Below are positions 3,219-41,230 of a stretch of DNA of 41,230 nucleotides, piece by piece; within the stretch, counting starts at the first letter, position 1; each line of letters opens with the position of its first letter. Made by a program: the position numbers and the translations under genes. Source of the stretch: a virus; IMG/VR virus record IMGVR_UViG_3300032895_000008, positions 1 through 41,230 of that record. One strand, 5' to 3'. The notes beneath the pieces were generated by a model that was not told the origin of the DNA, made no database searches, and saw nothing but the letters and a program-made list of their open reading frames with translations.

Positions 3219-3737
3219 TTACGTGACCACAGGCGCCTGGGGCGTCGTCTGGATCGAATAGTCGACCGTCACCACCTCGGTCGCGGTCGCGTCAGTCCCG
3301 GTGACGACGTAAATGTAGTCACCAGCGTTCACCGGCATGCCCCCATAGCCGCTCGTGCCGGAGTTCGTGTTGAGCGCCCACTGCGTGAACGCGCCCACCT
3401 GGTTGGTCCAGGTGCCCGAGGCGTTGTACTGGCCGGTGAGCGGGAAGGGGCCCATCGTCTGGGTCGCCAAGGACACCGAGCTTCCGGCAAGGGCGGTGTT
3501 GTACACCCGAATCACCGAGAGCTGCTGTGAGGCGATCGCGATCGAGGAGGTGCCGTTGCCCGGGGTGAACGTGTAGGTCGAGGTGCCCGCGACCGTGCAG
3601 TAGGCGTTCAGCGAGAAGAGCAGGAGCGCTGCGTGCGCGACAAACTTGCCGCTCGTGCCGCCCGAGCCCGCGGTGATGTTGCCTAGGTTCAAATCCCCCC
3701 GCAGGGCGGCGAGGGGCGGGGAGATGAGAAGCGCCAT
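3219..3737 (-). CDS. Capsid-associated protein, paralogue of the next gene
   Basis: A 172-residue protein starting at ATG 3737 with AAGGAG before it; a longer upstream reading would run into the preceding gene. It is rich in Thr, Ser, Gly and Ala with a beta pattern. It shares two blocks with the 3748-4374 product: TVAGTSTYTF (versus TVAAGTSTYTV) and GDYIYVVTGTDATATEVVTV (versus GDQVYVQNGTDATATFIATL). The pair therefore arose by duplication. Genes of this kind directly downstream of a capsid gene often encode head decoration or fibre-like proteins; that role is inference. Confidence 0.75.
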   Translation of the reverse strand: MALLISPPLAALRGDLNLGNITAGSGGTSGKFVAHAALLLFSLNAYCTVAGTSTYTFTPGNGTSSIAIASQQLSVIRVYNTALAGSSVSLATQTMGPFPLTGQYNASGTWTNQVGAFTQWALNTNSGTSGYGGMPVNAGDYIYVVTGTDATATEVVTVDYSIQTTPQAPVVT

Positions 3738-3747
3738 GGCGAGCTCC

Positions 3748-4374
3748 TTACGCCGACACCGCGCCGACCACCGGGGCGATCGAGACGTGCAACGTCGCGA
3801 TGAAGGTGGCGGTCGCATCGGTGCCGTTCTGCACGTACACCTGATCGCCGATGTTCAAGGGTAGCCCCCCGATGCCGGCCGCGACGCTCGGGTTGTTCGG
3901 TGCGGTGAAGGTCTGCGTGCCCCACGCCATCGTGGTATTGGTGCCACCCAAGGTGTTGACCGCATAGAGCCCTGAGGCGCCGTTCACCACGTTCGGGCTG
4001 TAACCGAAGATATTCGGCTGCGCGCCCGTGTTGAGCGAGGTGCCCGCGATGATCGCGAAGTTCGCGACCGTTTGCGTGTTCATGGTCACGGCCGTGCCGG
4101 TCGTGTTGGTGTTGGTGATGTACACCAGGCTCGCACCATAGGCGGGCGAGAGCGCGGTGCCGTTCACCGTGTAGGTGGAGGTGCCGGCCGCGACGGTCAG
4201 AAACGAGACGCCCCAGAGGACCATCTGGGTCCAGGCGACGAACTTCGAGAGTCCGCCGGTGCCCGACGGTAGGCCGTTCGCGCCGGCGGCCGTGGTGCCT
4301 TGCTGCACGCCCACCCGCACCAGCGCATTCGCCTCGTCGTAGCTGATCGAGCGCGCGAGATTGTTCTGAGCCAT
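3748..4374 (-). CDS. Capsid-associated protein, paralogue of the downstream gene
   Basis: A 208-residue beta-rich protein, the first gene after the major capsid gene, with AGGAGAAGGACG before the ATG. Residues about 8-70 include a predicted helix and a hydrophobic stretch (FVAWTQMVLWGVSFLTVAAG) that aligns with FVAHAALLLFSLNAYCTVAG in the neighbour. The C-terminal NGTDATATF block is also shared. A structural role such as capsid decoration fits the position and composition; there is no sequence motif that proves it. Confidence 0.75.
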   Translation of the reverse strand: MAQNNLARSISYDEANALVRVGVQQGTTAAGANGLPSGTGGLSKFVAWTQMVLWGVSFLTVAAGTSTYTVNGTALSPAYGASLVYITNTNTTGTAVTMNTQTVANFAIIAGTSLNTGAQPNIFGYSPNVVNGASGLYAVNTLGGTNTTMAWGTQTFTAPNNPSVAAGIGGLPLNIGDQVYVQNGTDATATFIATLHVSIAPVVGAVSA

Positions 4375-4465: not shown

Positions 4466-5455
4466 TTAAGCAGCACTGTCCCACTTCACGATGCGGGTGT
4501 TGATCGCGATGGTGTGCACGATCCCGTAGCCGCCGAGGTAGTACCAGGCGATGCCCTTCGACCGGCCGAAGTCGGTCGGGATCTTGCCGCGCATCTCCTC
4601 CGGCACCGCGATGCCCTCGGCGACCGTGTCGTTGCCGAAGAAGAAGATCCAGTCCGATTGCCCGTTGGTCCACTGCACCATGTCGCCGCCGGAGGCCACC
4701 GCGATGCCGGTGCTCCCGATGCCCTTGGCGATGTTGGTCTGCTCGATGTAGCGCACGTTCTCGTAGCGGCCGATCTCCCCGTTCATGATCAGGTTAAAGC
4801 CCGTGTCCGAGTACTGATGGATCCCCTCGAGGGTGTTCTTGAAGGTGCGGAGCGTGGTCGGCCAGGCGAGCGAGTAGTAGTCGTCCGCGATGTAGGCGGG
4901 GATATTGCGCTCCTTCATCGCATCGACCACGGCCTTGGCGTGCGCGTTCGAGTAGGCGACCGAGTTCGTGCCGGTGACCGTGCCGTTGGTGTAGAGCGTG
5001 ATTGCGCTCGCGCTCGTGCCGCCGACCGGGATCACACGGATGAGCGTCTGGTTGAATTGCCCCCAGACCATGCGGTCGAGGGTCTTCACCGTGTCGTTCT
5101 TCAGGCCCTTCTCGATGATGCTCTGGACCGGGAACTTCGACAGGTTGTCGAGCCTGCCGCTGTACGGGATCGAGTTGCCCGCCTCGGTGATGGTCAGCGT
5201 GCCCTGGGTGATGGTGAGGTTGGTCTCCGGCATGGTGTTCGTTTCGATGAGCACCGCGCCGACCTGCGCCACATCGGACACCACGTCCCAGGTGAAGGTG
5301 TCGCCCTTCTTCTTGCCCTGCTGGCTGATGTCGTGGACGTCGGCGAACTGGCGAAACTTCACCAGCGGCTGGACGTTCATGCGAAGGACGTTCGAGAGCT
5401 GGCGGGCGTAGAAGTAGCCGCCGAGCGTGTTCACCGACCAGACTTGACCTGCCAT
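4466..5455 (-). CDS. Major capsid protein, N4-gp56 type
   Basis: This 329-residue protein forms the icosahedral head shell. The N-terminus (VWSVNTLGGYFYARQLSNVL, then QPLVKFRQFADV) followed by KKKGDTFTWDVVSDV and LTITEAGNSIPYSG is characteristic of the N4-gp56 family of HK97-fold coat proteins, and the length fits. Its place between the scaffold candidate and small decoration-type genes supports this. The start at 5455 has GGGAG six bases upstream inside a small hairpin. A near copy of residues 5-37 is found in the unrelated gene at 10211-10645. Confidence 0.92.
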   Translation of the reverse strand: MAGQVWSVNTLGGYFYARQLSNVLRMNVQPLVKFRQFADVHDISQQGKKKGDTFTWDVVSDVAQVGAVLIETNTMPETNLTITQGTLTITEAGNSIPYSGRLDNLSKFPVQSIIEKGLKNDTVKTLDRMVWGQFNQTLIRVIPVGGTSASAITLYTNGTVTGTNSVAYSNAHAKAVVDAMKERNIPAYIADDYYSLAWPTTLRTFKNTLEGIHQYSDTGFNLIMNGEIGRYENVRYIEQTNIAKGIGSTGIAVASGGDMVQWTNGQSDWIFFFGNDTVAEGIAVPEEMRGKIPTDFGRSKGIAWYYLGGYGIVHTIAINTRIVKWDSAA

Positions 5456-7277: not shown

Positions 7278-7558
7278 ATGATACCGCCGGCCTTGAGCTG
7301 CGCCTCGAGCGCCTCGGTCTTGGCCGCCTGGCCCTTTTGGAACGGCATCCACTCGGCGTGGTAGCCCCCCATCGGGCTGTCCTGGGCGAGCGGCAGGCTG
7401 CAGGCGCTGAATGGCTGGCCGTTGGCATCGAAACCGCCGGCGTTGATCAGGGTGTCGCTCCACACCTTCGCGATCAAGGCGGGCTCAGGATTGCTCGGAT
7501 CGACGGATCCCGAGCGGCCGAAGACCAGGACGACTCGGCCAATGGTGGGCGTGATCAT
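7274..7558 (-). CDS. Hypothetical protein
   Basis: A 94-residue protein overlapping the portal stop by ATGA. The N-terminus (TIGRVVLVFGRSGSV) forms a short beta barrel-like start, the middle holds SMGGYHAEWMPFQKGQ-type residues, and the end is helical with AKTEALEAQLKAGG. Proteins with this combination occur beside portal genes in many phages, but no biochemical role is known to me. Confidence 0.7.
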   Translation of the reverse strand: MITPTIGRVVLVFGRSGSVDPSNPEPALIAKVWSDTLINAGGFDANGQPFSACSLPLAQDSPMGGYHAEWMPFQKGQAAKTEALEAQLKAGGII

Positions 7559-9819
7559 GCTGCTTTCCCCTTCCCCGGCACGTTAGGTGACGGCTTCGCG
7601 GCCTGTAGTGCCATCTGGCCCGCTTGGCTCTGATTCTGTTGCTCGATCGCCTGCTGGCCGCCGAGCTCCTGGGCCTCGCGCGCGGCCTCGCGCTGGCGGT
7701 CCATCTTCTCGAGCTCCATCAGGTGCCCGACCAAGAGGTGCTTGCCCTCCTTGGCATGGGTCTTGTCGGTGGTGATCAGCTTGGTGAGATTGTTCTCCCG
7801 GCCGAGCTGCAGTTTAACCACGTTCGACTCGTGCCGGTCGTGTTTGGTGAGCTCGGCCTTCTGGAGTTTCTGCTGCAGCACCTTGACCAGCTGCATGAGC
7901 TTTTGCTTCTCCGGATCCGCATCGCCCGGCAGGAACCTGAGGCCGTCCTGGTAGCCCGCGAGCGCCATGAACTCCTTGCCGACCTCCTTGAGATCCAGGC
8001 CCGGCGGGGGCGCTTTGCAGACGTTGGCATAAGAGGTCACCGCCTGGCTGAAGCGTTGCATCTTCATCACCGGGTCGGTCGCGCCCATGCCGATGTTGAT
8101 GTTAACCGCGATGCGCTTCTCGAGGATGGCGTCCGTGACCTCGTCGACCCCGAAGCGCTGCGCGATCTTCGCCTTCTGGCCGGCGACGGCGAGCAGCACC
8201 ATGTCGGACTCGTAGTACTGCTCGAGCAGCACCAGTTGGCGCAGGCACGGCAGGAGGAAGGTCTGCACGTAGGTCATGAGCGCGTACTCGGTCATCATCA
8301 GCGCCGGCGACTGCACCGCGTTCACCGTGCGGAAGGACTCGCGCGGGTTGCGGCCGCCGGGCCCGAGCTGGGTCGGGTTGAAGTTGCCGAGCAGGCTATC
8401 GAAGTCCGCGTCCACCCGCGCCTGCTCCTCGTAGGCGCTCTGGGTGATGTCCGGCCAGCTGACCTCCTTCACGTCCTTCTCGACGTCGTTCACCATGGTC
8501 ACGCCGCCGGGGACGTTCCTCACCAGGCTGGTGGTGTCGACGTTCGCCGAGCGCTTCGCGAACCAGCGCTTGTTGAGCACCAGCTTCACGTTGTCGGAGC
8601 GCTGGTTGCCGATGTCGTTGGTCTCCTCCTGGAGGCCGCGCCCCAAGGTCGGCAAGGAGGCCGGGATCGCCTTGTGGGTCTCGATGTTCCAGGTGCCGAC
8701 CACGTAGTCCCGATCGCCGTGCCAGACGTTTGCCTCGAGGGGCTCCGGGTCGGTCAGCATGTAGCGCGAGCCGAGCATGTACCACTCGAAATCCTCGCCC
8801 TGAAAGCGATGGATATGCCGGTGCACCCACACGATGTCGTACTCGTGCACCTCGCGGTCCTGCTGGCTCGCGTCCTGGCTCTGGTTGGTGCGCGCCTGGC
8901 GGGTCGAGTCGTCCGAGTTGTCGCGCGCCATCAGCAGCTGGTCTCGCCCGAGCTTTTTCCAGCGCTTGCCCTTCGGGTTGTCGCGGCGCATGCGCTCCTC
9001 GACCTCGCCCAGGTACATCGGGATCTCCTCGATGAGATACGGCGAGGTGCCGACCACGTCGTACCAGCAGGCCGAGGGGTCGAAGCGGAAGTTCTCGAGC
9101 GGCACGAGCTCCATCACCGGCTCGTCCTTCTGCACCACGTACTTCTTGTCGCGGCGGGTGAGGCCCTGATGGCACCAGTAGATCTTCGCCACCACCAAAC
9201 CCTGGGCCATCGCGTCCTGCAGGCCGCCGATCGAGAACTGAAACCAGGGGATCGACACGGTGAGGCGCTGCTGCAGCACCTCCTTCATCACCTCGGCCGA
9301 GACGATCTCCTCCTTGTTGGTGCCGTCGACCGCTTGGGTCTCGATCAGGTCCAAGTTCGAGAACAGCGCCGCGCAGAGGGCCGCCTCGTTCTTGCGCATC
9401 ACGGTGCGGGTTTTCGGGCGGTAGAGCTTGGAGCGCTTGTTGAAGGTCTCGGAGTTGTACTTCGAGTCCGAGGCGTGCTGGTTGTTGAAAGCGCGGAGGC
9501 TGTTGTCGAGGTCTTTCCGGTAGTTGTTGTCGAAATAGGTCGTGCTCGAGCGAAACGCCTTCTTGCCGATGTTGAGCCAGTCGGGCTCCTCGCCCTCCGG
9601 GATCTCCTCGACATCGCCGTCCTCGTCGACCTCGAGGTCGCCCAGGTCGTTCTCGTCGAGGTGCGGCTGCGTGCCGCCGCCGCCCCACTCGCCCAAGGCG
9701 ACGATGTCCGAGCCGCCCTCGTCGCGCTCCTTGCCCATGTAGTCGAGCGGCGCGCGGCCCTCCTCCGGGTCCTCGATCGCCGGCGGCTGCGTGCGCCAAG
9801 GGAGGGAGGCGCGGGCCAT
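7555..9819 (-). CDS. Portal protein, P22/N4-like podovirus type
   Basis: This 754-residue protein should form the dodecameric ring through which DNA enters and leaves the head. An acidic disordered N-terminus (1-80) is followed by the core with RPKTRTVMRKNEAALCAALF near 130-150, PLENFRFDPSA near 238-248, a VTMVNDVEKDVKEVSWPDIT region near 455-475 and the wing/helical part containing PRESFRTVNAVQSPALMMTE near 500-525. The C-terminal 100 residues are helical and Gln-rich, like the barrel of P22-type portals. Length is close to the 725 residues of P22 gp1. The start overlaps the previous stop (TGATG). Confidence 0.88.
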   Translation of the reverse strand: MARASLPWRTQPPAIEDPEEGRAPLDYMGKERDEGGSDIVALGEWGGGGTQPHLDENDLGDLEVDEDGDVEEIPEGEEPDWLNIGKKAFRSSTTYFDNNYRKDLDNSLRAFNNQHASDSKYNSETFNKRSKLYRPKTRTVMRKNEAALCAALFSNLDLIETQAVDGTNKEEIVSAEVMKEVLQQRLTVSIPWFQFSIGGLQDAMAQGLVVAKIYWCHQGLTRRDKKYVVQKDEPVMELVPLENFRFDPSACWYDVVGTSPYLIEEIPMYLGEVEERMRRDNPKGKRWKKLGRDQLLMARDNSDDSTRQARTNQSQDASQQDREVHEYDIVWVHRHIHRFQGEDFEWYMLGSRYMLTDPEPLEANVWHGDRDYVVGTWNIETHKAIPASLPTLGRGLQEETNDIGNQRSDNVKLVLNKRWFAKRSANVDTTSLVRNVPGGVTMVNDVEKDVKEVSWPDITQSAYEEQARVDADFDSLLGNFNPTQLGPGGRNPRESFRTVNAVQSPALMMTEYALMTYVQTFLLPCLRQLVLLEQYYESDMVLLAVAGQKAKIAQRFGVDEVTDAILEKRIAVNINIGMGATDPVMKMQRFSQAVTSYANVCKAPPPGLDLKEVGKEFMALAGYQDGLRFLPGDADPEKQKLMQLVKVLQQKLQKAELTKHDRHESNVVKLQLGRENNLTKLITTDKTHAKEGKHLLVGHLMELEKMDRQREAAREAQELGGQQAIEQQNQSQAGQMALQAAKPSPNVPGKGKAA

Positions 9820-10214
9820 CAGCCCTTACCCATGCCGCGGATCTGCTGGCCCTTCATGATCGTGTGGTAGAGCTCTGGCGGGATCGTCGGGTAGAGATCC
9901 GGCACCACCGCGCCGCGCGGCAGGCCGAACGCCTCGAGGAGCGCGCCGGCGAACTTGACCGCGGTCTTGCACGCCTCTTGGACCGTGCCGATCTTGTTCC
10001 GCGGCAGGAGCGAGCAGAAGCCCTCCTTGCCGGTCGCCACCGTCACCGTGTTGGTGATCGCCACGTGGGTGATGCAGAGGTTGTGGTTCTGAAAACCTAT
10101 CATCCAATAATGCCCGGGATAGTGAGTTTCCAGCTCTACTGCGATCGCCTTGGCAATAGCCAGATCATTTGATTCGTCGGGGTTGCCCGGGTTGATGTGG
10201 ACTATCTGATTCAT
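9819..10214 (-). CDS. Hypothetical protein in the portal operon
   Basis: Starts at ATG 10214, which overlaps the previous stop as ATGA, giving 131 residues. Strands such as HYWMIGFQNHNLCITHVAIT and a helix with VQEACKTAVKFAGALLEAFG are visible, but no known catalytic pattern. The 5' half is poorer in GC than its neighbours, suggesting a separate origin. Genes here in related genomes are usually hypothetical. Confidence 0.7.
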   Translation of the reverse strand: MNQIVHINPGNPDESNDLAIAKAIAVELETHYPGHYWMIGFQNHNLCITHVAITNTVTVATGKEGFCSLLPRNKIGTVQEACKTAVKFAGALLEAFGLPRGAVVPDLYPTIPPELYHTIMKGQQIRGMGKG

Positions 10215-10645
10215 GGCTCGTCGAACTGCCGAAAGCGCATCAGCGGCTGCACGTACATGCGCAGGACGTTCGAGAGCTGGCGCGCGTAGAAGTAGCCGCC
10301 CACCAACGAGTTCACGCTCCACACGTTCGCGTCGACCGCGGCCGCCATCTCCTCGGCGATCGGCTGGATGATCTGATCTTCCCAGTTGCCGATCGGTGCG
10401 CCGTACACGTCCCACGAGAGCCTGTGCGGTGGCAGGAAGAAAACGCGGCCGGGGTGGAGCAGCTCCTCGGCGAGCACCGGGACTGCCAAGGCTGTGGGGA
10501 GCAGGGCCTTCAAAAAACCCCGGCGCGTGAAAGATGTGGGGCTTTGGAGGGAGATGCCTTGCGGCGCGTCCTCTACCCTCATGGATTCCGCCAGTCCCGC
10601 GCGGGGCGAGAGGGATGCGGATCCCCACAGCCTACGTAGCCGCAT
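10211..10645 (-). CDS. Twin-arginine signal protein fused to a copy of the capsid N-terminus
   Basis: A 144-residue protein starting at ATG 10645 (five bases after the previous stop); ATG 10582 is an alternative. Residues 38-60 read as a TAT signal: SFTRRGFLKALLPTALAVPV followed by LAEE, with the (S/T)RRxFLK core at 40-46. Residues 108-141 nearly repeat capsid residues 5-37 (29 of 33 identical plus one inserted Val), ending at FRQF and then stopping. DNA over this stretch is also nearly identical to 5343-5445, so it is a recent partial duplication or a constrained copy. It could be an anchored capsid-binding factor, but no function is proven. Confidence 0.8.
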   Translation of the reverse strand: MRLRRLWGSASLSPRAGLAESMRVEDAPQGISLQSPTSFTRRGFLKALLPTALAVPVLAEELLHPGRVFFLPPHRLSWDVYGAPIGNWEDQIIQPIAEEMAAAVDANVWSVNSLVGGYFYARQLSNVLRMYVQPLMRFRQFDEP

Positions 10646-11067: not shown

Positions 11068-11238
11068 CTAGCCTTCATCCGGATCTAGATCGTACATGTG
11101 TTGGCGCTCGGCGTGTTGGTCGCGGAGCTCACGGTTTTCCAGAAGTAGCCGCGCCATGAGCTCGTTGGTGTAGCGATCGCATTTCTGCTGCACCGCTACC
11201 TGCAGGCGGTCGAGCTCGGCGTCGGTGAGATGGGCCAT
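11068..11238 (-). CDS. Small helical protein
   Basis: A 56-residue protein whose ATG shares its A with the terminase stop (TAATG), a translational coupling signature. The sequence is one long helix rich in Leu, Glu and Arg (ELMARLLLENRELRDQHAER), suitable for a coiled coil. Tiny genes directly after terminase are common in podoviruses; function unknown. Confidence 0.65.
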   Translation of the reverse strand: MAHLTDAELDRLQVAVQQKCDRYTNELMARLLLENRELRDQHAERQHMYDLDPDEG

Positions 11239-12758
11239 TACACGATGTCCGGCTCGAGGCTTTGCTGATCAACAGCTTCCGGGGCGATTGGGTGGGCATC
11301 GTAGATGCGCGACGTTGCGTCGATCAAGTCCTTTCGGCCGCCGAACGGGTATAAGGACATCTGGATCCGCAGCCGCTCGGCCACATCGTAGATGCGCTTC
11401 TCCTGGTCCAGGCGCCGGATCGGCCGGGCGACCCGGTACTCGTAGCCCGCCCCGATCATCGAGCGCTGCAGGCGCGTGTAGCGCTCCTCGTCGGTGGGAT
11501 ACGGCAGGTAGAAGCGGTGTCCCTTCACGTCCGGCACCAGGCGCTGCACGCGGTCGTCCTTGCCGACCTCGCCCTGTTCGGGCCACTCGAGCTCGATGAT
11601 CTCGAAATGGTTGCCCTCGAGCTGCTGGCGGTGCTTGAAGTAGTCGAGGTCGGCGCGCGCGCCGAAAGACTCGTAGCCGGCAATGATCCCCACCACCCCG
11701 GGCTCGCGGTTCCACTTGTCGTAGAGCTCGCTGAAGCGCTCCCAGCGCTCCATCAGGTCCATCTGGTGATCGTACCCGTCCAGCAGGTATTTGTTACCGG
11801 CGGCATCGATGCCGATCACGACCATGGCGGTGTTGGCGCTCGTTTTCTTCTTCGAGCGCGCCGGGTCGCAGAGGAGATACACCTGCAGAGTCCGCGGCCG
11901 CACCTCGTAGACCTGCAGGTCCGTGGTGTTGAACATGCGCTGGCTGCCGGCCAGCGGGTTCAGCAGCATCTGGCAGGCGAGCGTCGAGTCGAGCATCTCG
12001 ACCTTCTTCTTCGCCCAGGCACGCCTGGATAAAAGCACAGGCCGCCCGTCCTTCTGGCCGTTGTGGGTCGCCGGGTAGATCCGCGGGATGGCGGCCTTCC
12101 TGTCCATGATCTCCTGGTAGGTGTCGGCGAAGTGGTAGCGGGTGCCGACCGTCCACACGCGCCCCTCGGCGGTCCCGAGGTTCGAGCTCATGCTCCACCC
12201 CTCGGTGGTTTTCATGATCTGGTCCGGGGTGTTGACGCTCGCCGGCACCACCACGTCCTCGTAGATCCTCAGCATGAAGTGCGCGCCGATCGGCGTGCCG
12301 TCGATCAGGCCCCACGCCTCGAGGGTGCCCTCTTTGGGGTTGCCCTTGCGCTTGACGACCAGGCCCTTCTGCACGCTCCAGCGCTCCGGCGTCTCGCCGT
12401 CGGCGTACAGGATGTCGGGGAACGCGGCGCGGAGCAGCGTGTTGCGCTCGAGCTCGAGCTTGATCTGGTTCACGAACTTCTCGGCGATCGCCTTGGTGTG
12501 GCTGAAGATCGCGGCGGTGATCTCGGGGTTGCGCAGGATCTCCTGGATGCAGCCGGTGAAGGTGATGATCGTCGACTTGTAGTGGTCGCGCGCCCAGAGG
12601 TCGATGTAGCCGTCGGGGTTCGCCTCGACCTCGCGGCAGCGGCGGTAGATCCAGGGGTGGAGACAGTCGGTGCGGCCGAACACGCGCACCAGCAGGTAGA
12701 AACGGTCAGCTTTCGCCAGCTCCCTCACTGCTGACAGGTTCTTGCCCCCCTCGTCCAT
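11238..12758 (-). CDS. Terminase large subunit
   Basis: The packaging motor ATPase and nuclease. I prefer ATG 12758 (506 residues), because the extension to 12899 is Ser/Pro/Ala-rich sequence lying over the small-subunit gene. The Walker A equivalent is ARDHYKST at 56-63, as seen in N4-like and related terminases; LRIYED at 163-168 is the likely Walker B region. The nuclease domain begins at VYLLCDPARS (Asp 298) with a later Asp-rich metal site. The order small subunit, large subunit, portal is standard. The packaging strategy cannot be read from sequence alone. Confidence 0.88.
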   Translation of the reverse strand: MDEGGKNLSAVRELAKADRFYLLVRVFGRTDCLHPWIYRRCREVEANPDGYIDLWARDHYKSTIITFTGCIQEILRNPEITAAIFSHTKAIAEKFVNQIKLELERNTLLRAAFPDILYADGETPERWSVQKGLVVKRKGNPKEGTLEAWGLIDGTPIGAHFMLRIYEDVVVPASVNTPDQIMKTTEGWSMSSNLGTAEGRVWTVGTRYHFADTYQEIMDRKAAIPRIYPATHNGQKDGRPVLLSRRAWAKKKVEMLDSTLACQMLLNPLAGSQRMFNTTDLQVYEVRPRTLQVYLLCDPARSKKKTSANTAMVVIGIDAAGNKYLLDGYDHQMDLMERWERFSELYDKWNREPGVVGIIAGYESFGARADLDYFKHRQQLEGNHFEIIELEWPEQGEVGKDDRVQRLVPDVKGHRFYLPYPTDEERYTRLQRSMIGAGYEYRVARPIRRLDQEKRIYDVAERLRIQMSLYPFGGRKDLIDATSRIYDAHPIAPEAVDQQSLEPDIV

Positions 12759-13164
12759 CGCCACCCAGGTCCTTATCAGGTCGGGGATCGGCACGATCGG
12801 CAGCGATCTTGCGGAGTCGGTCGTAGTAGGCGCCGAGGAGCTCGGGTTCGGCGGCGACGGCAATGCCGACGGGCTTGCCGCCGGGCCCGGCGAGCTCATG
12901 GCTCACCGTCTCGCGCCAGCCCATCTGCGTGGCGGTCCACCACTTGACCATCGAGGGCACGCCTTTCTTGGCCTCCTGGTAGGCGACGCCCGCGACGGTG
13001 AAGCACGCCTTCGCCTTGCCCATGTCGAGCTGCGCGCGGTAGCGCTTCCGTAACGTTTTCACGGACTTGACCCCAATCAGCACCGCGATCATCTCGTGCG
13101 GCATGCCGATGCCGGAGGCGTTCTCCACGGTCTTGCGGCTCTCGTCTGTGACCTTGTGTGTCAC
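12706..13164 (-). CDS. Probable terminase small subunit
   Basis: A 152-residue protein overlapping the methyltransferase stop by ATGA and the large terminase start by about 50 bases. Residues about 12-45 form a helix-turn-helix (IGMPHEMIAVLIGVKSVKTL then RKRYRAQLD), followed by a helical oligomerisation region ending in a MVKWWTATQMGWRE motif, an arrangement found in many phage small terminases. It should recognise the packaging site and regulate the large subunit. The assignment rests on HTH, size and position. Confidence 0.75.
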   Translation of the reverse strand: MTHKVTDESRKTVENASGIGMPHEMIAVLIGVKSVKTLRKRYRAQLDMGKAKACFTVAGVAYQEAKKGVPSMVKWWTATQMGWRETVSHELAGPGGKPVGIAVAAEPELLGAYYDRLRKIAADRADPRPDKDLGGDGRGGQEPVSSEGAGES

Positions 13165-15295: not shown

Positions 15296-15517
15296 CTAAT
15301 CAAGCTGCGCTCGATAGCCGTTGTAGGCGGTGCGCTGCGCATAGGCGTCGCGCTTGACGTGCTGGGCGAGGCGGGCGGGGAGGTCCGTGTTCTTCCGGTG
15401 CTCGATCGTCGCGTCGAGGTCGTAGTCGCCGGACAGGTTCGCCACATCGCGCCAGCCCTTCGGCGCGACGATATGGTTCCCTCGGTGGCCCATGGCCCGC
15501 ATTTCGCTTTTCGTCAT
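15296..15517 (-). CDS. Small hypothetical protein
   Basis: A 73-residue product with ATGA overlap to the upstream nucleotidyltransferase gene. The sequence RGNHIVAPKGWRDVANLSGD followed by a basic helical end (ARLAQHVKRDAYAQR) shows no known motif. It is the last gene before the structured noncoding gap. Confidence 0.65.
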   Translation of the reverse strand: MTKSEMRAMGHRGNHIVAPKGWRDVANLSGDYDLDATIEHRKNTDLPARLAQHVKRDAYAQRTAYNGYRAQLD

Positions 15518-15975
15518 GGTGGAGCGTTTTTAGCCTCTTGAGAGGCTCCTGGCAAGCCCAGACGCGCAATTTCGGTGCTGGTCGAGATTCCGGGCAGGCG
15601 CGGGATGACGATAATCGGGATGGTGTCCCAGGCTTCGCGGCCGGCGCTCTTCCACCCCGGCACCCGCATGAAGAGTGCGGTGTGGAACTCCGGCGCGTGG
15701 TCGGCGCCCTTGAACACCACGTCCGGTCGAATCTCGGCGATCAGGTGCTCCTCGCGTCCCTCGAAGGGGATCACCGCAGAGGCGATCGTGCGCACGAACT
15801 GCATCCGCCGCGCCCACGTCCACACCGGCCGGTCGGGGCCCTTGACGCGGGTGCAGTAGCGGTCCGAGTTCACCGCCACGATCAGGTAATCGCAATGCTT
15901 CGTGCACTCGCGCAGGAAGTGCTCGTGGCCGGTGTGGAAGAGATCGAAGCAGCCGTTGGCGAAGCCGATGTTCAC
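15514..15975 (-). CDS. hldE: Heptose-phosphate nucleotidyltransferase (HldE C-half)
   Basis: A 153-residue cytidylyltransferase-fold enzyme from GTG 15975. The nucleotide-binding GCFDLFHTGH is at 8-17, IVAVNSD at 32-38, RIKGP-like RVKGPDRPV at 43-51, DVVFKG at 85-90 and the closing STSTEI at 131-136. These match the adenylyltransferase half of HldE (RfaE), which makes ADP-D-glycero-beta-D-manno-heptose from heptose 1-phosphate. In bacteria this half is usually fused to a kinase; here the kinase lies separately at 18749-19552. Isomerase, phosphatase and epimerase steps were not found, so the host would provide them or the product differs. Confidence 0.85.
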   Translation of the reverse strand: MNIGFANGCFDLFHTGHEHFLRECTKHCDYLIVAVNSDRYCTRVKGPDRPVWTWARRMQFVRTIASAVIPFEGREEHLIAEIRPDVVFKGADHAPEFHTALFMRVPGWKSAGREAWDTIPIIVIPRLPGISTSTEIARLGLPGASQEAKNAPP

Positions 15976-16006
15976 CGCGGCACCTCGGCATCAGAGGTAT
16001 ATGCAT

Positions 16007-16747
16007 TCATCCCAGCAACTCCAGGTTGTGCTGCACGCCGTTGGAGCCGCACCAGCGAGCTGCCGAGCCGTGCGCCTCGATGCGCTCCATCATAATCAGC
16101 GCTCGCATCTCGCGGCTGCGCGGCGCATAGGGACCGTTCCACGCCTTGTCGATCCCGACGTTGCGGGCGACGTTGCAGCTATCGGCGGACGCGAGCGGGA
16201 GGTGGCTGAAGATCACCGGATCGAGCATGCGTAGGCCATGGAGCTTCGTGCGCGGCATTCCATTGGAGTCGAACAGCACCGCAGCCATCTCGGCGATGCG
16301 CCCCCACCAGGTCTCTGAGCCAGGATCTGACCACTTGCCGGATGACCCAATGGCAATGCGTTGGTAGCGCGACACCAGGCGCTCCAAGCGCTCCAAGGAC
16401 TCGTGCATGTGATAGACCGGGACGCCCCCGATGATCGGATGTGGCCAGCGGTGCAGGATCATATCGTTGTCGCCTTCGGTCCCGTCGATCACATCTGGGA
16501 TCACGCACCACTCGACGGCGGGATGCTTTAGCCACTTCGTGACCCACTCAAGGTAACCGTCGAAATCGTGCTTCTTGCCAGCTCGCCACGCCGAGAATGC
16601 GCCATTGTCCAGGACGACGGACTGACACACCTCGGCGGCGACTTCGATCTGTCGCGGCTCTTGGAACGACACCATCACATGGCGGCCGGCGAAGGCTTTC
16701 ACCATGTCAGCGGCTGGCGTCATCGGCAGACCATGGTAATGGATCAA
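16007..16747 (-). CDS. DpdA/TGT-like transglycosylase
   Basis: A 246-residue TIM-barrel-type protein. VVLDNGAFSAW places an Asp at 47 where tRNA-guanine transglycosylases have the Asp-Ser-Gly-Gly-Phe site; CVIPDVIDG (81-89), VYHMHES (111-117), IAIGSSG (131-137), TKLHGL (167-172) and the SADS at 187-190 (Asp 189, position of the nucleophile) follow in the family order. Phage members (DpdA) exchange guanine in DNA for 7-deazaguanines, while others act on tRNA. No preQ0 synthesis genes are seen, so the base would come from the host. The GC content is lower here than in neighbours. Fold call firm; DNA as substrate is inference. Confidence 0.78.
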   Translation of the reverse strand: MIHYHGLPMTPAADMVKAFAGRHVMVSFQEPRQIEVAAEVCQSVVLDNGAFSAWRAGKKHDFDGYLEWVTKWLKHPAVEWCVIPDVIDGTEGDNDMILHRWPHPIIGGVPVYHMHESLERLERLVSRYQRIAIGSSGKWSDPGSETWWGRIAEMAAVLFDSNGMPRTKLHGLRMLDPVIFSHLPLASADSCNVARNVGIDKAWNGPYAPRSREMRALIMMERIEAHGSAARWCGSNGVQHNLELLG

Positions 16748-17001
16748 GGCTTCGTTTCTCCGCTGTCAGTAGGTAGATCGCCGCAATAGGCACACCAGAC
16801 CCGGCCGCCCTCGTCGTCGTGTCCCGGGCAAGTCTTCAATGCCAAGATCCAGAGGCGATTAGCGTTAGCATCAAGCAGGCCAGCCGAATGCAAAGCCCAT
16901 CGAGCGCCGTCCGCGAACTTCATGCTGTACACATGGTCATCGCGGCACATCCTGTGCGCCTCGCGCATGATGTCATCAGCCTCCACGCTCATCGCCTCCA
17001 T
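16744..17001 (-). CDS. Small protein with zinc-type cysteines
   Basis: An 85-residue product with ATGA overlap to the transglycosylase. The C-terminus contains CPGHDDEGGRVWCAYCGD, a Cys/His cluster that could hold one zinc. The N-terminal half is helical (MREAHRMCRDDHVYSMKF). Start uncertain: ATG 17001 has no clear ribosome site, ATG 16992 has GGAGG two bases upstream. Both overlap the upstream gene. Confidence 0.6.
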   Translation of the reverse strand: MEAMSVEADDIMREAHRMCRDDHVYSMKFADGARWALHSAGLLDANANRLWILALKTCPGHDDEGGRVWCAYCGDLPTDSGETKP

Positions 17002-17218
17002 CGGGAGTTGAGCGAATTACAGTGACGAGTTCTGCGGCCTCGCTAATCGATATGAATGTCTTCTCAGGGTCATCGCGGATATAGGCCGTTGCTGTCCACA
17101 CTTCATCAATGATCTCGGCGGCAAACCACAACTGCACGCGCTTTATCTCGGTTTCGGAAATGCCTGGCGCCTTGAGCGTCACGCCGGGAACTTCGTATAT
17201 CACGCCAAATAGCTTCAT
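16976..17218 (-). CDS. Small hypothetical protein
   Basis: Starts at ATG 17218 with GAGGTGAAG just before it, giving 80 residues. A beta-rich N-terminus (KLFGVIYEVPGVTLKAPG) is followed by helices (ISISEAAELVTVIRS). GC content falls to about 50 percent around 17041-17100 (30 of 60 bases), unlike the rest of the window, suggesting recent acquisition. Family not recognised. Confidence 0.65.
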   Translation of the reverse strand: MKLFGVIYEVPGVTLKAPGISETEIKRVQLWFAAEIIDEVWTATAYIRDDPEKTFISISEAAELVTVIRSTPDGGDERGG

Positions 17219-17235
17219 GGCTTCACCTCTCTGTT

Positions 17236-17394
17236 TCACGAGCGGCCCCGCCACGCCTCCCACTGCTCGACGAGCACCCAATAGCTGCCGTCGTGCCCCT
17301 CGAAGAGCGTGGGCACACCGAGGCCGCCGGATTTGAGCGCTTCGATGTCCGCCGCATCTATCACTTGGCGCAGGCGTTCGTTCGGTGAGCTCAT
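17236..17394 (-). CDS. Small hypothetical protein
   Basis: A 52-residue protein from ATG 17394, overlapping the previous stop by ATGA. The second half (GHDGSYWVLVEQWEAWRGR) is rich in Trp. No known family. Coding status is supported by the overlap and by codon use like the neighbours. Confidence 0.55.
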   Translation of the reverse strand: MSSPNERLRQVIDAADIEALKSGGLGVPTLFEGHDGSYWVLVEQWEAWRGRS

Positions 17395-17642
17395 GCGGCC
17401 GGATCCGGCGGCTTTGCGTTGGTCGAGACCACGGTGAGCTGGGTTACCGAGGCGGGCTCCTTCGAGCCTACCCAGGGGCCGCCGGACGGCTTGCCGATCA
17501 CCTCAAGCCAGCCGATGCAGCTCGAGAACTCGGCAATCACTCGCTCGCCCTTGACGAAGCGGTGCACGCCGGACACCTGGTCGTGGCTGTCGCATTCGAC
17601 CTCGACTAAGTGCATCGGCGTCAGGAAGACGTGAAACTTCAT
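17391..17642 (-). CDS. Small hypothetical protein, beta-rich
   Basis: An 83-residue protein with ATGA overlap at both ends. Strands MKFHVFLTPMHLVEVE and GERVIAEFSSCIGWLEVIG suggest a small barrel. It lies in a block of short accessory genes; function unknown. Confidence 0.65.
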   Translation of the reverse strand: MKFHVFLTPMHLVEVECDSHDQVSGVHRFVKGERVIAEFSSCIGWLEVIGKPSGGPWVGSKEPASVTQLTVVSTNAKPPDPAA

Positions 17643-18280
17643 CCGCCGGCCACCCGGATGATCTCCTGCAGCGCATGCCCCTCGTCGGTGGTGCCCCAGC
17701 CGCCGCGGGCGATGGTCAAGATCTGCTCGAGGCGCGCCTTCATGCGGTCGTTCGAGGCCTCGAGCATGGTGATCTGGTCGGCCTGGGCGTTGCCCGACTC
17801 GACCAGCTGCACGCCCTCGCGCTCGAGCGTCTGGTAGTCCGGGCGATCGGGCGGCAGGCCCATCTTGTCGAGCGGCGTCTCGCCGACGGCGTCGCGCTGG
17901 TGCGGGTTCACGCCGTTCGACTTGAGCAACACCTCGAGCTGGCTCTGTAGGTGATGCACCAGCTTCGACATGGCGCCAATGTTGTCCTCGCTCCGGGCGC
18001 CCAGGTTGTACCGCAAGTACTCGAGCTCGCGCAGCGTCGGCAAGATCGCCTTCTCGCGGAATTCGCCGATGGCGCTGTTCAGCCGGCCGACATTGTCCTT
18101 GAACTCGCGGAAGTCGGCGGCGATCTGGCCGATATCCGACTGCACGCGTGAGAGCGCGGTCGAGGCCATGAATTCTCCGAGCATGCGCTGCATGACCGCA
18201 GTGTCGGGCAGCTGCACCTGGATATCCGGCTGCGGAGGGCCGCGCACCACCACGTCCGAGTTCTTCTTCCGTTTGAACAC
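17639..18280 (-). CDS. Hypothetical helical protein (coiled coil)
   Basis: The likely start is GTG 18280 with GGAGG five bases upstream, giving 213 residues starting VFKRKKNSDVV. Upstream frame extension is Arg-rich shadow sequence. Residues about 45-130 are a long coiled coil (FREFKDNVGRLNSAIGEFRE), and 155-200 another helix. It looks like a rod-like structural or regulatory protein. No motif identifies it. Confidence 0.65.
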   Translation of the reverse strand: MFKRKKNSDVVVRGPPQPDIQVQLPDTAVMQRMLGEFMASTALSRVQSDIGQIAADFREFKDNVGRLNSAIGEFREKAILPTLRELEYLRYNLGARSEDNIGAMSKLVHHLQSQLEVLLKSNGVNPHQRDAVGETPLDKMGLPPDRPDYQTLEREGVQLVESGNAQADQITMLEASNDRMKARLEQILTIARGGWGTTDEGHALQEIIRVAGG

Positions 18281-18282
18281 CT

Positions 18283-18432
18283 TTACCTCCGGTTCTTCTT
18301 GCGGGCGGCCTTCACGATCTGGCGGCGCACATCGTTCTTCTTCCTCTTTTTCGTGAACGCCCGAGTCTCGCCGGCGAAGTGCGCGAAGCCCGGCGGGCGG
18401 ATCAGCACCTGCTTGGCGCGCGTCTGGGTCAC
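18283..18432 (-). CDS. Small basic protein
   Basis: A 49-residue reading frame from GTG 18432, in a GTGA overlap with the upstream cupin gene. The product is strongly basic (FTKKRKKNDVRRQIVKAARK) and its TAA stop lies within the ribosome site of the next gene. It may bind nucleic acid. Too short for family recognition. Confidence 0.55.
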   Translation of the reverse strand: MTQTRAKQVLIRPPGFAHFAGETRAFTKKRKKNDVRRQIVKAARKKNRR

Positions 18433-18752
18433 GACTCGCTCGGCACCAGGCGCACGCAGTCCTCTGAGTCGTCGTGGGTCGAGGCCTCGACGATCGTGCC
18501 CGGCTCGAGGCAGCGCACCCGATGCGCAAGGCCTGCCGGAATCGTCAGGTGCATGCCGGGCCGGTACGTCATCGCGTTGCCCTGCTCGCCGTGATCGATC
18601 TCGAACAGCCCCGAGGTCACGTAGAAGGTCTCACGCTTCTTCGGATGGTAGTGCAGGCTCGAGGCGACGGGGCGCGTGTAGACCAAAAGCTTCATGCAGT
18701 ACTGATCATTCTCGAGGATCAGCTCGTACCCCCAGGACTTCTCGATCCTCAT
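18429..18752 (-). CDS. Cupin, mannose-6-phosphate isomerase-like
   Basis: Starts at ATG 18752 (ATGA overlap with the sugar kinase), 107 residues. The first cupin motif is SSLHYHPKKRETFYVTSG (residues about 31-48) and the second is PGMHLTIPAGLAHRV (about 65-79); EKSWGYELI at the start and IVEASTHDDSEDCVRL near the end match single-domain sugar-phosphate isomerase-like cupins. The His residues could bind a metal. Sitting directly after the heptose kinase, it probably acts on the same sugar, for example as an isomerase or epimerase, but this is not proven. Confidence 0.75.
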   Translation of the reverse strand: MRIEKSWGYELILENDQYCMKLLVYTRPVASSLHYHPKKRETFYVTSGLFEIDHGEQGNAMTYRPGMHLTIPAGLAHRVRCLEPGTIVEASTHDDSEDCVRLVPSES

Positions 18753-19552
18753 CCGGCGAGCTCCTGCAGTACGGACAGGGGGCAGACCGTCGTGCCCACC
18801 TCGCCGACCACGAAGCCGGCGGCCATATTGGCGAGCTCGCACGCCTGGTCGAGCGTGCCGCCGGCGGCGACCGTCGCGGCAACGAGCGCGGTCACCGTGT
18901 CGCCTGCGCCGGTGACGTCGAACACATGCTTCGCCTGAGCAGGGAAGTCCCGACCGACGGGGTCTCCATCGGAATACAAACTAAGGCCCGCTGAGCCGCG
19001 CTTGACGATCAAATGTTCTGCTGGCCACCGATAAGTCAGATGATCGAACACCTCCAGGTGATTGGGACAAATGACCGTAGCGCCGGCGTACTTGGCCCAG
19101 GTCGTGCCCTTGGGGTCGACGATCACAGGCACGCCCAGGTGCATGTAGCTCTGGCACCAGGCCTCCGAGAGCGCGCCTTTGCCGTAGTCGGACAGCACCA
19201 CCGCATCGGCCGGTGCCGGACGCTCAGTCGGTAACGGCTTGAGCTCGACCCGGCGATCAAAGTCCACGCGAAATAGCTGGTGCGAGCCGACGAGATACCG
19301 ATGCTTCTCGGTCCAGGTGGTCGAGTCCAGGCTATAACCCGCCTGGACAGCGACCCCGAGCTCGGCCAGCTGGTTCCACACATTGGCCGCGCCGCCCAAG
19401 CGTTTATCGACCCGCTCCTCGATGAACACCGGGACCGGTGCCTCCTGGCTAACGCGCTCGACGCGGCCGAAATGATAGACGTCGATCATCGGGTCGCCCG
19501 CGACCAGAATGTTCAGGTTCGAGAACCGCCCGAGGAGATCGCGCAGGGTCAC
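18749..19552 (-). CDS. hldE: Heptose 7-phosphate kinase (HldE N-half, PfkB family)
   Basis: From GTG 19552 (GTGA overlap), 267 residues; a longer reading is shadow sequence of the neighbouring gene. It has the PfkB/ribokinase fold: GGAANV at 53-58, SDYGKGAL at 121-128, VDPKGT at 145-150 with an AKYAGATVICPN segment after it, and the catalytic TGAGD at 214-218. These are the HldE kinase signatures; the enzyme phosphorylates D-glycero-D-manno-heptose 7-phosphate at C1. It is about 50 residues shorter than the E. coli domain. Together with the separate nucleotidyltransferase it forms a split HldE. Confidence 0.85.
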   Translation of the reverse strand: MTLRDLLGRFSNLNILVAGDPMIDVYHFGRVERVSQEAPVPVFIEERVDKRLGGAANVWNQLAELGVAVQAGYSLDSTTWTEKHRYLVGSHQLFRVDFDRRVELKPLPTERPAPADAVVLSDYGKGALSEAWCQSYMHLGVPVIVDPKGTTWAKYAGATVICPNHLEVFDHLTYRWPAEHLIVKRGSAGLSLYSDGDPVGRDFPAQAKHVFDVTGAGDTVTALVAATVAAGGTLDQACELANMAAGFVVGEVGTTVCPLSVLQELAG

Positions 19553-25330: not shown

Positions 25331-25551
25331 GGCGCCGGTGCCTGTGGCCCGGGTGCGCACAGCGCACCGCGAAGCTCGATCTCGTGTACTGCCATCAGCA
25401 TTACGGGGCGCTCACCGATGAGCTGCGCACGCGGCTGTACCGAGCTCGGGGCGGCGCTGACTGGATGGCTGCGCTGGATGCCTGTCAGGCATACGCGCGC
25501 GAGGTGGAGAGGTGGGCGAAGCGAGACGTCACAGGAGGTGCCCAATGTTGA
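25327..25551 (+). CDS. Small zinc-binding protein
   Basis: ATGA overlap, 74 residues. [20 protein letters not shown] followed by HY provides CxxxxC and CxxH ligands, a small zinc finger common in phage proteins. The C-terminal half is helical and Arg/Ala-rich. Possible nucleic acid binding. Confidence 0.65.
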
Positions 25552-25730
25552 TTCTGACGAGACGGCCCGGTGAGCTGATCAAGATCGGCCCCGATATCGA
25601 GGTCGTGGTCTTGGGGGTGCAGGGCCAGCAGGTGCGCCTCGGGGTGGCGGCGCCGCGCGAGGTCGTGGTCGATCGGCAGGAGGTGGCCGAGCGCAAGGCC
25701 GCCGGGCTTACGCGGCCGTTGCGGCGATGA
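25545..25730 (+). CDS. csrA: CsrA family translational regulator
   Basis: ATG 25545 with AGGAGG upstream, 61 residues, the same length as E. coli Csr[21 protein letters not shown] and [20 protein letters not shown] cover the dimeric beta fold; Leu 4, Arg 6, Arg 31 and Arg 44 (VVDRQEV), the RNA-contact positions, are retained. CsrA binds GGA motifs in mRNA leaders and blocks or stabilises translation. A phage copy could reprogram host carbon flow, biofilm or motility, or time phage mRNAs, and so may suit the sugar genes encoded on the other strand. Confidence 0.9.
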
Positions 25731-31570: not shown

Positions 31571-32896
31571 CTACTCGTACTCCCAGTCGGTCGCGATGCC
31601 GTGGCGCTTTAACTTCGGGATCTCGGTCTCGAGCTTCTCGCCGATGTCATCGCGGTAGATCATGTTCGGCACGTGCAGGTCTTTGAGCGTGTCGTAGGCG
31701 CGCTGGCAGGCGCGCTTGACGCTCTTGCCGGTGCCGGTCACTACCACGAGATAATCGCCGGTGGTGGTCCAGGTCGGCTTGGTCGTCACCTCCTCGCCGG
31801 CCATCACCGGCTGCGGGGCAATCTTCACCGCCTGGGGCGACAAGTACGGCAGGTTCTCCCGGGTCACGCCGTAGATCGGGATGCCCTCGACCTCGGCTTT
31901 GGTGAGAGTACTGTACGGATAGTCAGGCTGCGCGAGCACGATGCCGCAGGCGTGCCGGGTGGCGGCTTTGAGGGTGTCCTTGCCGTTGCAGGCATCGAGC
32001 ATCCACTCGACCGGGTCGCCTAAGTGGGTCTGCCACATGATGTTCGCGGCGGGCCAGCCTAAGCGCGTGGTAAATTCCAGCGGCCAGCAGCGCCCCTCGT
32101 CGTCCACAATGCAGTTCACGTCGATATCGCCCAAATGACCGATCGCGACCAGCTTTTCCTCGAGCGGTGCAAGGACCTCCTGAAACAGCTTCGATTCGCC
32201 GGCGGTGTACTTCATTACCGTACCGGCCTCGCCGCAGTTGGGCCCGCAGTTGCCGGAGAGGAGCTTCTTAAATTCGAAGTTCTCGTTCGGGGGGCCGACC
32301 CAGCCGTGGGTGCCCATCCATCGGGAGACCCCGACCTCGATGCCGTCAATCACTTCCTGCAGCATCACGGGCCCCTTTGGGTCCATTTTCAGCTTCTGCC
32401 AGCGCTCGAGGCGGGCGATGAGGTCCGCGGCCGACTTGCCGACGTAGCTCAGACTCTTGTCCTCCTCGTCTCCGAGCGTCTTAAAAACGAACCGCCCGCC
32501 CGTCTTCCGCACGTGAGCTTCCGCCTGCTCCAGGGACTTAAATTCCTGGGCGGTTGGAGTAGCGATGCCGGCGGTCTTGAAGAACTCCATACCGCGAGCG
32601 CGGTCAATCTCGAGCGCCGCTGACTTGGCCGAGGGGCCAAAGACGCGGATCCCTTCCTTACGCAGGTGATCGAACTTCGGGATGAACTCGTGGTTGCCGG
32701 TCGGCACGATGAGATTCGCCCAGCGCGCGTGCTCGAGCCAGCTCTTGACCCGCTCGACGCCCTTGAAGCCGTCCCCGGTGGTCGGGTGATTCTCCTTCGA
32801 GTACCAGATCTTGACCTCGTGGCCCGCCTTCGCGGCGCGAATGCCGAGCGGTAAGCCTTCCCCGACCGAGTCCATGTTCACGATCAGCACCTTCAC
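31571..32896 (-). CDS. PurD-like ATP-grasp ligase
   Basis: A 441-residue enzyme. FGPSAKSAALEIDRARGMEF near 86-105 followed by GRFVFKTLGDE, PVMLQEVIDGIEVGVSRWM near 177-195 and DIDVNCIVDDEGRCWPLEFT near 260-280 match the ATP-grasp fold of phosphoribosylamine-glycine ligase (GARS), and the C-terminal end includes VTGTGKSVKRACQRAYDTL. The substrate site of PurD near the N-terminus (Gly-Gly-Arg-Glu-His) is replaced by NMDSVGEGLPLG, so the amine acceptor is probably different. No other purine gene is nearby. Placed between tail fibre and ejection proteins, it may modify a virion component. Fold firm, substrate unknown. Confidence 0.8.
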   Translation of the reverse strand: MKVLIVNMDSVGEGLPLGIRAAKAGHEVKIWYSKENHPTTGDGFKGVERVKSWLEHARWANLIVPTGNHEFIPKFDHLRKEGIRVFGPSAKSAALEIDRARGMEFFKTAGIATPTAQEFKSLEQAEAHVRKTGGRFVFKTLGDEEDKSLSYVGKSAADLIARLERWQKLKMDPKGPVMLQEVIDGIEVGVSRWMGTHGWVGPPNENFEFKKLLSGNCGPNCGEAGTVMKYTAGESKLFQEVLAPLEEKLVAIGHLGDIDVNCIVDDEGRCWPLEFTTRLGWPAANIMWQTHLGDPVEWMLDACNGKDTLKAATRHACGIVLAQPDYPYSTLTKAEVEGIPIYGVTRENLPYLSPQAVKIAPQPVMAGEEVTTKPTWTTTGDYLVVVTGTGKSVKRACQRAYDTLKDLHVPNMIYRDDIGEKLETEIPKLKRHGIATDWEYE

Positions 32897-37234: not shown

Positions 37235-37717
37235 TTATCCTCCCAGCCACTGCGTGTAATAGACATCCGCCGGCTGCATCTTGAGCTCCTCGAACACGCG
37301 GCTTGCATCCTTGTGCCACTTCGAGCCCGCGTACCAGCGCTTCACCCCGCGCCGTATCGCTTCCTCGCGCACGGCCTCAAAGAGCTGCAGGGCCAGCATG
37401 TGGGCCTCCAATTGCGTGAGCGACTCTTGATCGCGGTACTGCGGGTGCAGCCAGAAAATATCCTGCTGCAGCGTCAAACACCCCTTGGAATGAAGCGCGG
37501 TGTCGACCATGCCGACGAAGTAGGCAATCACCTGGCCGCGATCGCGCAGCACCACGCACAGGATCTTGCCCATCTCCTCGAGCGCGAAGTACTTGGGATA
37601 ATCAGGGTCGAGGCCGACCTCCTCCTGGTGCAAGGCGAGCTCGGCGTGGTGCTCGCCGAAGTGCGCCTTGAGCTCCTCCATGTTGTCCGCCAGGCGCTCG
37701 ATGTGGGCGGTGATCAT
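37235..37717 (-). CDS. GNAT-family acetyltransferase
   Basis: A 160-residue enzyme. FVGMVDTALHSKGCLTLQQD (residues about 67-86) followed by IFWLHPQYRDQESLTQLEAH is the GNAT core, where the Gln/Arg-x-x-Gly/Ser acetyl-CoA loop is replaced by YRDQES. It continues RWYAGSKWHKDASRVFEELK near 126-145 and ends KMQPADVYYTQWLGG. Phage GNATs of this kind are common next to tail and ejection genes and have unknown targets. Proximity suggests acetylation of a virion protein. Confidence 0.78.
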   Translation of the reverse strand: MITAHIERLADNMEELKAHFGEHHAELALHQEEVGLDPDYPKYFALEEMGKILCVVLRDRGQVIAYFVGMVDTALHSKGCLTLQQDIFWLHPQYRDQESLTQLEAHMLALQLFEAVREEAIRRGVKRWYAGSKWHKDASRVFEELKMQPADVYYTQWLGG

Positions 37718-41082: not shown

Positions 41083-41230
41083 GCGAGGTGGGGGTTTAAG
41101 CGCTCCGTCTGCAAGGTGCTGTAGATCGCATCGCGAATTGCATGCCAGACCGCCGTGCCATCGAGATCGGCCATGCACTGAGCTATGCCGCGCTCTTTGT
41201 CCTGCTTACAGAACTCCCAGCTGTAATGCA
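41079..41230 (-). CDS. C-terminal end of the methyltransferase-glycosyltransferase fusion
   Basis: This stretch encodes the last residues of the protein beginning at 1643: the repeated 127 bases and then 25 unique bases ending RLNPHLA and TGA at 41081-41079. The stop overlaps the ATG of the gp4-like gene. Joined to 1-1643 it gives a frame of 1668 bases (556 codons). Confidence 0.88.
   Translation of the reverse strand, partial: HYSWEFCKQDKERGIAQCMADLDGTAVWHAIRDAIYSTLQTERLNPHLA
41104..41230. repeat. 127-bp direct terminal repeat, right copy
   Basis: Identical to bases 1-127; see the left copy. Confidence 0.95.

Follow-up and report, generated by a model that had tools for sequence, protein, structure and literature searches.

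The viral genome held as IMG/VR record IMGVR_UViG_3300032895_000008 (the window hereafter, meaning the whole stretch of 41,230 base pairs (bp)) carries, upstream of its terminase gene and on the minus strand, a heptose cassette in which an HldA-like kinase is followed by a small cupin of the D-lyxose-isomerase type, a conserved protein, small genes, a DpdA-like gene and an HldC-like nucleotidyltransferase. We propose that the cupin is very likely a sedoheptulose-7-phosphate isomerase taking the place of GmhA, a catalytic role predicted from sequence comparison, and that kinase-linked members of its family are very probably an unrecognised GmhA stand-in in many phages and some bacteria. As a whole, the cassette is best explained, with good probability, by a phage that makes or tops up adenosine diphosphate (ADP)-D-glycero-D-manno-heptose. 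The wider proposal, that this widespread cupin family replaces GmhA in phages and Patescibacteria and that, in the phage group of the window, ADP-D,D-heptose also feeds a methyltransferase-GT9 protein decorating a virion protein with (methyl)heptose, is a tentative one.

The assignment of the kinase and the nucleotidyltransferase to the heptose pathway appears firm from their profile matches. The best NCBIfam match of the kinase was rfaE_dom_I (TIGR02198, E 2e-63, 214.4 bits), with the next unrelated family at 1e-6 and 28 bits, and its closest solved relative was HldA 4e84 (E 2.7e-37, 132 bits; next solved match 29 bits); the motifs GGAANV, DPKG and GAGD are retained. Its 214.4 bits lie under the NCBIfam equivalog cut-off of 345 bits, the model having 315 positions against 267 residues in the protein, and we read it as HldA-like. 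Similarly, the nucleotidyltransferase matched rfaE_dom_II best (TIGR02199, E 5.5e-25), its 87.9 bits being under the equivalog cut-off of 181.5 bits so that we read it as HldC-like; the next specific family was g3p_cytidyltrns (2.8e-6, 27.5 bits), PF01467 was matched above cut-off, a further search gave PHROG 7878, and the HxGH motif is kept as HTGH at residues 14-17. These matches to rfaE domains I and II bear out the initial annotation in placing the two heptose activities in separate genes, but its premise that HldE is normally one protein was only partly right. Neisseria and Ralstonia have HldA and HldC as two enzymes (PMC10221265), the Fusobacterium pair, likewise separate, works in an E. 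coli hldE mutant (PMC10761154), and cyanophage records hold neighbouring but distinct genes with heptose-enzyme annotations, genes of this kind being listed in a cyanophage genome report (PMC7378029); the split is thus no novelty in itself.

The first and last 127 bases of the window are identical, and because of these ends we think it very probable that the assembly is circular and complete at 41,103 bp, despite the linear topology given in the IMG/VR record. A truncated contig was rejected on this ground as the reason that genes are missing, and their absence is meaningful. GmhA, GmhB and HldD had been listed as missing in the initial annotation, and the profile search that it proposed found none of the three in the window: there was no TIGR00441 match to a SIS-fold GmhA anywhere, which also disposes of a GmhA hidden elsewhere in the genome, and no match to GmhB/HAD or to an HldD-like epimerase using profiles built for this analysis. 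The cupin gene does follow the kinase, as had been noticed, its start codon overlapping the kinase stop by four bases (ATGA). The genome probably does cover the isomerase step, with the cupin in the role of GmhA; the window cupin itself is not a GmhA and is only proposed to work like one.

Relatives were gathered both by kinase and by cupin, and their gene neighbourhoods were profiled. Among the kinase-bearing loci, 101 had the cupin without GmhA, 14 had GmhA without the cupin and none had both. The kinase-selected loci alone gave 47 with the cupin, 14 with GmhA and none with both (Fisher p 1e-6, uncorrected for relatedness), and 105 dereplicated heptose kinases gave 75, 12 and 0. On a maximum-likelihood kinase tree the cupin and GmhA states interleave, and the 12-row clade to which the window belongs, which has good support, holds six cupin rows and five GmhA rows. 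A second set was chosen by the GT9 gene and comprised 39 long records with the GT9-methyltransferase, mostly from one scan, with two found separately. Fourteen of these have the kinase, four with the cupin, nine with GmhA, one with neither and none with both; exactly one isomerase accompanies the kinase in 13 of the 14, and any isomerase is present in 2 of the 25 kinase-less records (p 2e-7, again uncorrected for relatedness). The exchange is visible in the slot before the terminase, which holds cupin-kinase-HldC in L311 and GmhA-kinase-HldC in L312 and L313, while L310 has kinase-HldC and no isomerase, L314 the cupin alone and L315 GmhA-HldC and no kinase. Such partial cassettes in sister phages suggest that the host completes the pathway. 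In L003, with 49% kinase identity, the cupin, the kinase, HldC and a GmhB-like phosphatase are consecutive.

The strongest evidence for the cupin as a replacement of GmhA comes from cellular genomes. None of the seven with the cupin gave a GmhA match, but contamination is possible in two, a Rhodobacteraceae bin and a Euryarchaeota bin, whose cassettes resemble those of cyanophages. One patescibacterial genome (G212) encodes a GmhA-HldA fusion, and three others (G389, G254 and G276) encode cupin-HldA fusions of the same layout, while G306 has an HldA-cupin fusion. GmhB adjoins or lies near all five fusions and in several cases is itself fused to HldC. Six genomes have a cupin linked to the kinase, and a full GmhA was found in none; one of the six has a 90-bit SIS protein.

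The residues kept in the cupin point in the same direction. The family profile matches the D-lyxose ketol-isomerases 2y0o and 7nzo over nearly the full length, with the YCxK, HxH, KxE, H and ExS elements aligned. In the Thermofilum D-lyxose isomerase, K62, H75, H77, K86, E88, H143, E156 and D163 contact the metal or the sugar, and the enzyme type becomes inactive when the residue equivalent to K86, E156 or D163 is lost (PMC8378251). The likely counterparts in the cupin are K21, H34, H36, K39, E41, H77, E89 and D98, the D163-D98 pairing being by position only; the spacing between K21 and H34 equals that between K62 and H75. Across 80 cupin members, K5, W7, G8, E10, Y18, K21, S32, H34, H36, K39, E41, G48, H77, E89 and S91 are invariant or kept, and the ketol-isomerase metal site of three histidines and one glutamate (H34, H36, E41, H77) is invariant together with K39 and E89. 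Against Pfam PF07385 the window cupin scored 12.5 bits, below the gathering score of 20.8, and 68 of the 80 members matched that family at E values up to 0.1 (best 1.1e-5). An AlphaFold model gave a cupin barrel with a predicted local distance difference test (pLDDT) score of 93.9. By fold search many cupins tie with D-lyxose isomerases, within 1.8 Z units, and naming the reaction in this way was abandoned, too many enzymes sharing the fold. D-lyxose, D-mannose and D-glycero-D-manno-heptose have the same configuration at C2-C4; the proposed reaction would therefore be the C7 member of a series that this enzyme type already catalyses.

In the pathway that we propose, the cupin would supply heptose 7-phosphate from sedoheptulose 7-phosphate in place of GmhA, the HldA-like kinase would convert it to heptose 1,7-bisphosphate, a host phosphatase, presumably the host GmhB, would strip the 7-phosphate (relatives bring their own GmhB), and the HldC-like enzyme would add adenosine monophosphate. 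The most likely user, a GT9-methyltransferase of the late structural operon, would then put the heptose, perhaps methylated, on a virion protein. The fusion of a GT9 glycosyltransferase to a methyltransferase, already noticed in the initial annotation, was confirmed here for the full-length protein read across the circular junction: its N-terminus matches Methyltransf_11 (PF08241, 34.5 bits, above cut-off), and its C-terminus is a heptosyltransferase-fold domain. This domain scored 12 bits against Pfam PF01075, below the gathering score of 22, the best E value among homologues being 0.021. Its model (pLDDT 93.2) reached Z scores of 23.9 to 3tov, 22.9 to WaaF and 20.0 to WaaC and TibC, with GT9 enzymes at 19.6-23.9, plant NDH-complex subunits at 19.3-19.4 and all others at or below 13.5; judged by its modelled fold, the domain is a divergent member of GT9. 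An aspartate where the catalytic base is expected is invariant in 51 homologues, as are four cysteines, one row being gapped at the last cysteine. The cysteines fall within a 33-residue stretch of the C-terminal lobe at a spacing of x10-x9-x10; the iron finger of TibC occupies the same region at a different spacing (x2-x15-x11).

The gene order of the genome is P22-like, with terminase, portal, major head protein, other head genes, the methyltransferase-GT9 gene and putative tail genes, those at the other end from the methyltransferase-GT9 gene being read as gp4- and gp10-like. Among 80 homologous loci, the methyltransferase-GT9 gene follows the head genes wherever the flank reaches them, and in 78 of them the gp4-like gene comes immediately after it; the strand is the same throughout. 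Its conserved place in the late structural operon therefore favours a virion protein as the acceptor, which we nevertheless hold at somewhat under an even chance, whereas use of the sugar by the GT9 domain seems about evenly balanced. Of the three targets suggested in the initial annotation, lipopolysaccharide (LPS), a virion protein and DNA, the virion protein thus fits best, and nothing was found for DNA. We know of no precedent for virion glycosylation with (methyl)heptose. Two similar tandem Ser/Thr-rich proteins (21-24% S+T) are encoded at 3219-4374, directly after the major head protein gene, and are possible glycosylation acceptors.

Modification of the host LPS for superinfection exclusion or receptor masking, through the GT9-methyltransferase or host WaaC/WaaF, is a real possibility, though one that we would not call probable. 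The founders of GT9, WaaC and WaaF, act on LPS, partial cassettes can draw on the host, and rfaE genes of other phages have been so read (PMC7029224). The position of the GT9 gene between head and gp4/gp10-like tail genes, however, suits a late function directed at the virion. HldD, required for the L,D form of the LPS core, is also absent from the genome, although the host may have it; this absence fits a D,D-heptose donor and could equally mean host supply.

A different challenge concerns the cupin, which might be an anomerase or mutarotase-like helper resembling KdgF, or some other sugar-phosphate epimerase, while the host supplies GmhA. In fold, KdgF and further small cupins are just as near, a host GmhA could serve, and one record (G047) has the kinase and HldC without an isomerase. 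A helper, however, ought to turn up alongside GmhA in some cases, whereas the two never occur together with the kinase; moreover, they are swapped in the same fusion slot, kinase-linked cupins reside in genomes without a full GmhA, and the lysine and glutamate of ketol-isomerases are invariant. We therefore consider a helper function unlikely.

Several observations nonetheless weigh against the isomerase and the pathway that we propose. Structural scores for KdgF, phosphomannose isomerase and CapF are as good as those for the D-lyxose isomerases, and an independent-pair test on the kinase tree yielded six supported pairs, too few for significance. One record (G051) carries the cupin but neither the kinase nor HldC, and another cupin record (G042) gave a weak 29-bit SIS-domain match. 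In Patescibacteria, more distant cupin paralogues that have no kinase linked to them occur in genomes with GmhA, and the replacement argument is therefore limited to the kinase-linked family. The kinase is about 25 residues shorter than HldA, with the gap between positions 66 and 81. Finally, of the 39 records of the second set, all with the GT9-methyltransferase, 25 (some of them fragmentary) have no kinase; the GT9-methyltransferase is therefore independent of phage-made sugar, and its link to the cassette is supportive but not strict.

That the enzymes make another nucleotide sugar, or that heptose bisphosphate is itself the useful product, we regard as improbable. The sub-equivalog scores of both enzymes, the lack of GmhB in this genome and the D-lyxose/D-mannose isomerases among the cupin relatives would allow it, but GmhB near the kinase and HldC in L003, in L316-L318 and in the patescibacterial clusters, as well as the replacement of the cupin by GmhA in sister phages, argues for heptose 7-phosphate as the kinase substrate. 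Attachment of the sugar to phage DNA, which could be aided by the DpdA-like gene (16007-16747; PHROG 887, E 8e-66) and has a DNA methyltransferase gene nearby, is very improbable: the sister cassettes L002 and L310 lack the DpdA-like gene, no DNA glycosyltransferase was found, and no GT9 enzyme is known to us to act on DNA.

Table 1. Features of the window, with coordinates, strand and the evidence for each
Feature	Coordinates	Strand	Evidence
Methyltransferase-GT9 fusion, 555 residues	1-1643, last 25 bases at 41079-41103 across the circular junction	-	PF08241; GT9 model
Major head protein	4466-5455		Phage-family matches
Portal	7555-9819		Phage-family matches
Terminase	11238-12899		Phage-family matches
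HldC-like heptose 1-phosphate adenylyltransferase, 153 residues	15514-15975	-	TIGR02199, PF01467, PHROG 7878, HTGH
Conserved protein in cassette, no Pfam match	17639-18316	-	60% identity in L002, 56% in L310
Cupin, D-lyxose-isomerase type, 107 residues, proposed sedoheptulose-7-phosphate isomerase	18429-18752	-	GmhA exclusion, fusions, profile match, invariant residues
HldA-like kinase, 267 residues	18749-19552	-	TIGR02198, HldA 4e84, PHROG 8133, motifs
Terminal direct repeat	Copy 1, 1-127; copy 2, 41104-41230	.	Exact 127-bp identity

Within the cassette, the conserved protein has the same place in L002 and L310, with the kinase/cupin on one side and the nucleotidyltransferase on the other, and the DpdA/TGT-like gene is an insertion, with no preQ0 synthesis gene noticed nearby. 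A CsrA homologue is encoded on the plus strand at 25512-25730 (PF02599, 75.5 bits). In the tail region, an aspartyl/asparaginyl beta-hydroxylase domain (PF05118, 37714-38340) adjoins a possible acetyltransferase-like gene (37235-37717); the hydroxylase is conserved at some GT9 loci, where it follows the gp10-like gene. Between putative tail genes, 31571-32896 encodes a phosphoribosylglycinamide synthetase-like protein (GARS_A ATP-grasp below cut-off, GARS_C above); L318 has a homologue of it, separated from the kinase cassette by about 2.3 kb. Positions 10218-10300, inside the open reading frame 10211-10645, repeat 83 bp of the major head protein gene (5340-5422) at 88% identity, possibly a duplicated head-protein fragment. 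No close cultured phage relative was found, the terminase showing 25-28% identity among the matches listed, and the GT9-methyltransferase gave no match in that search.

Compared with the bacterial ADP-heptose pathway (GmhA, HldA/HldC or HldE, GmhB, HldD), the kinase and adenylyltransferase are homologous, whereas here a cupin stands for GmhA, GmhB and HldD are absent, and the kinase is the shorter by the residues noted above. If our proposal is true, the GmhA step is also carried out by an unrelated metal-dependent fold, a new isofunctional family, and the seemingly broken heptose pathways of phages and Patescibacteria are completed. The open-access literature, a partial body without most subscription journals, yielded no paper on a phosphoheptose isomerase of the cupin type; GmhA is under study as an antibacterial target (PMC11056994). 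The cyanophages S-CAM1, P-SSM2 and S-SSM7 cluster HldC-like, HldA-like and small HAD proteins with the same cupin family, but differ in having an HldD-like epimerase and a carbamoyltransferase and in being myoviruses of roughly 200 kb. Their records name the cupin a cysteine dioxygenase or (putative) nucleotidyltransferase, annotations that would be corrected, and the small HAD protein a phosphoheptose isomerase. The small genes at 9713-10036 of L022 (S-CAM1) and 9719-10063 of L023 (P-SSM2), given that name in P-SSM2 and other S-CAM1 records, we read as HAD phosphatases by their DIDGT motif, with the cupin adjacent. The cupin D-lyxose isomerases of Bacillus (2y0o) and Thermofilum (7nzo), the best near-full-length profile match, have the YCxK, HxH...KxE, H and ExS metal and sugar residues in common with the window cupin, which differs in its length of 107 residues against about 175, in an identity of 22-25% and in its proposed substrate, a C7 sugar phosphate. 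TibC, of the BAHT family, heptosylates protein using ADP-D,D-heptose without HldD and has a four-cysteine iron finger (PMC4358343). The GT9-methyltransferase has in common with it the GT9 fold, the aspartate at the expected catalytic-base position and four cysteines in the C-terminal lobe, but differs in cysteine spacing, in having a methyltransferase domain instead of the N-terminal beta-barrel and in its place in a phage structural operon. With that placement, the idea that phage particles are heptosylated becomes a concrete hypothesis.

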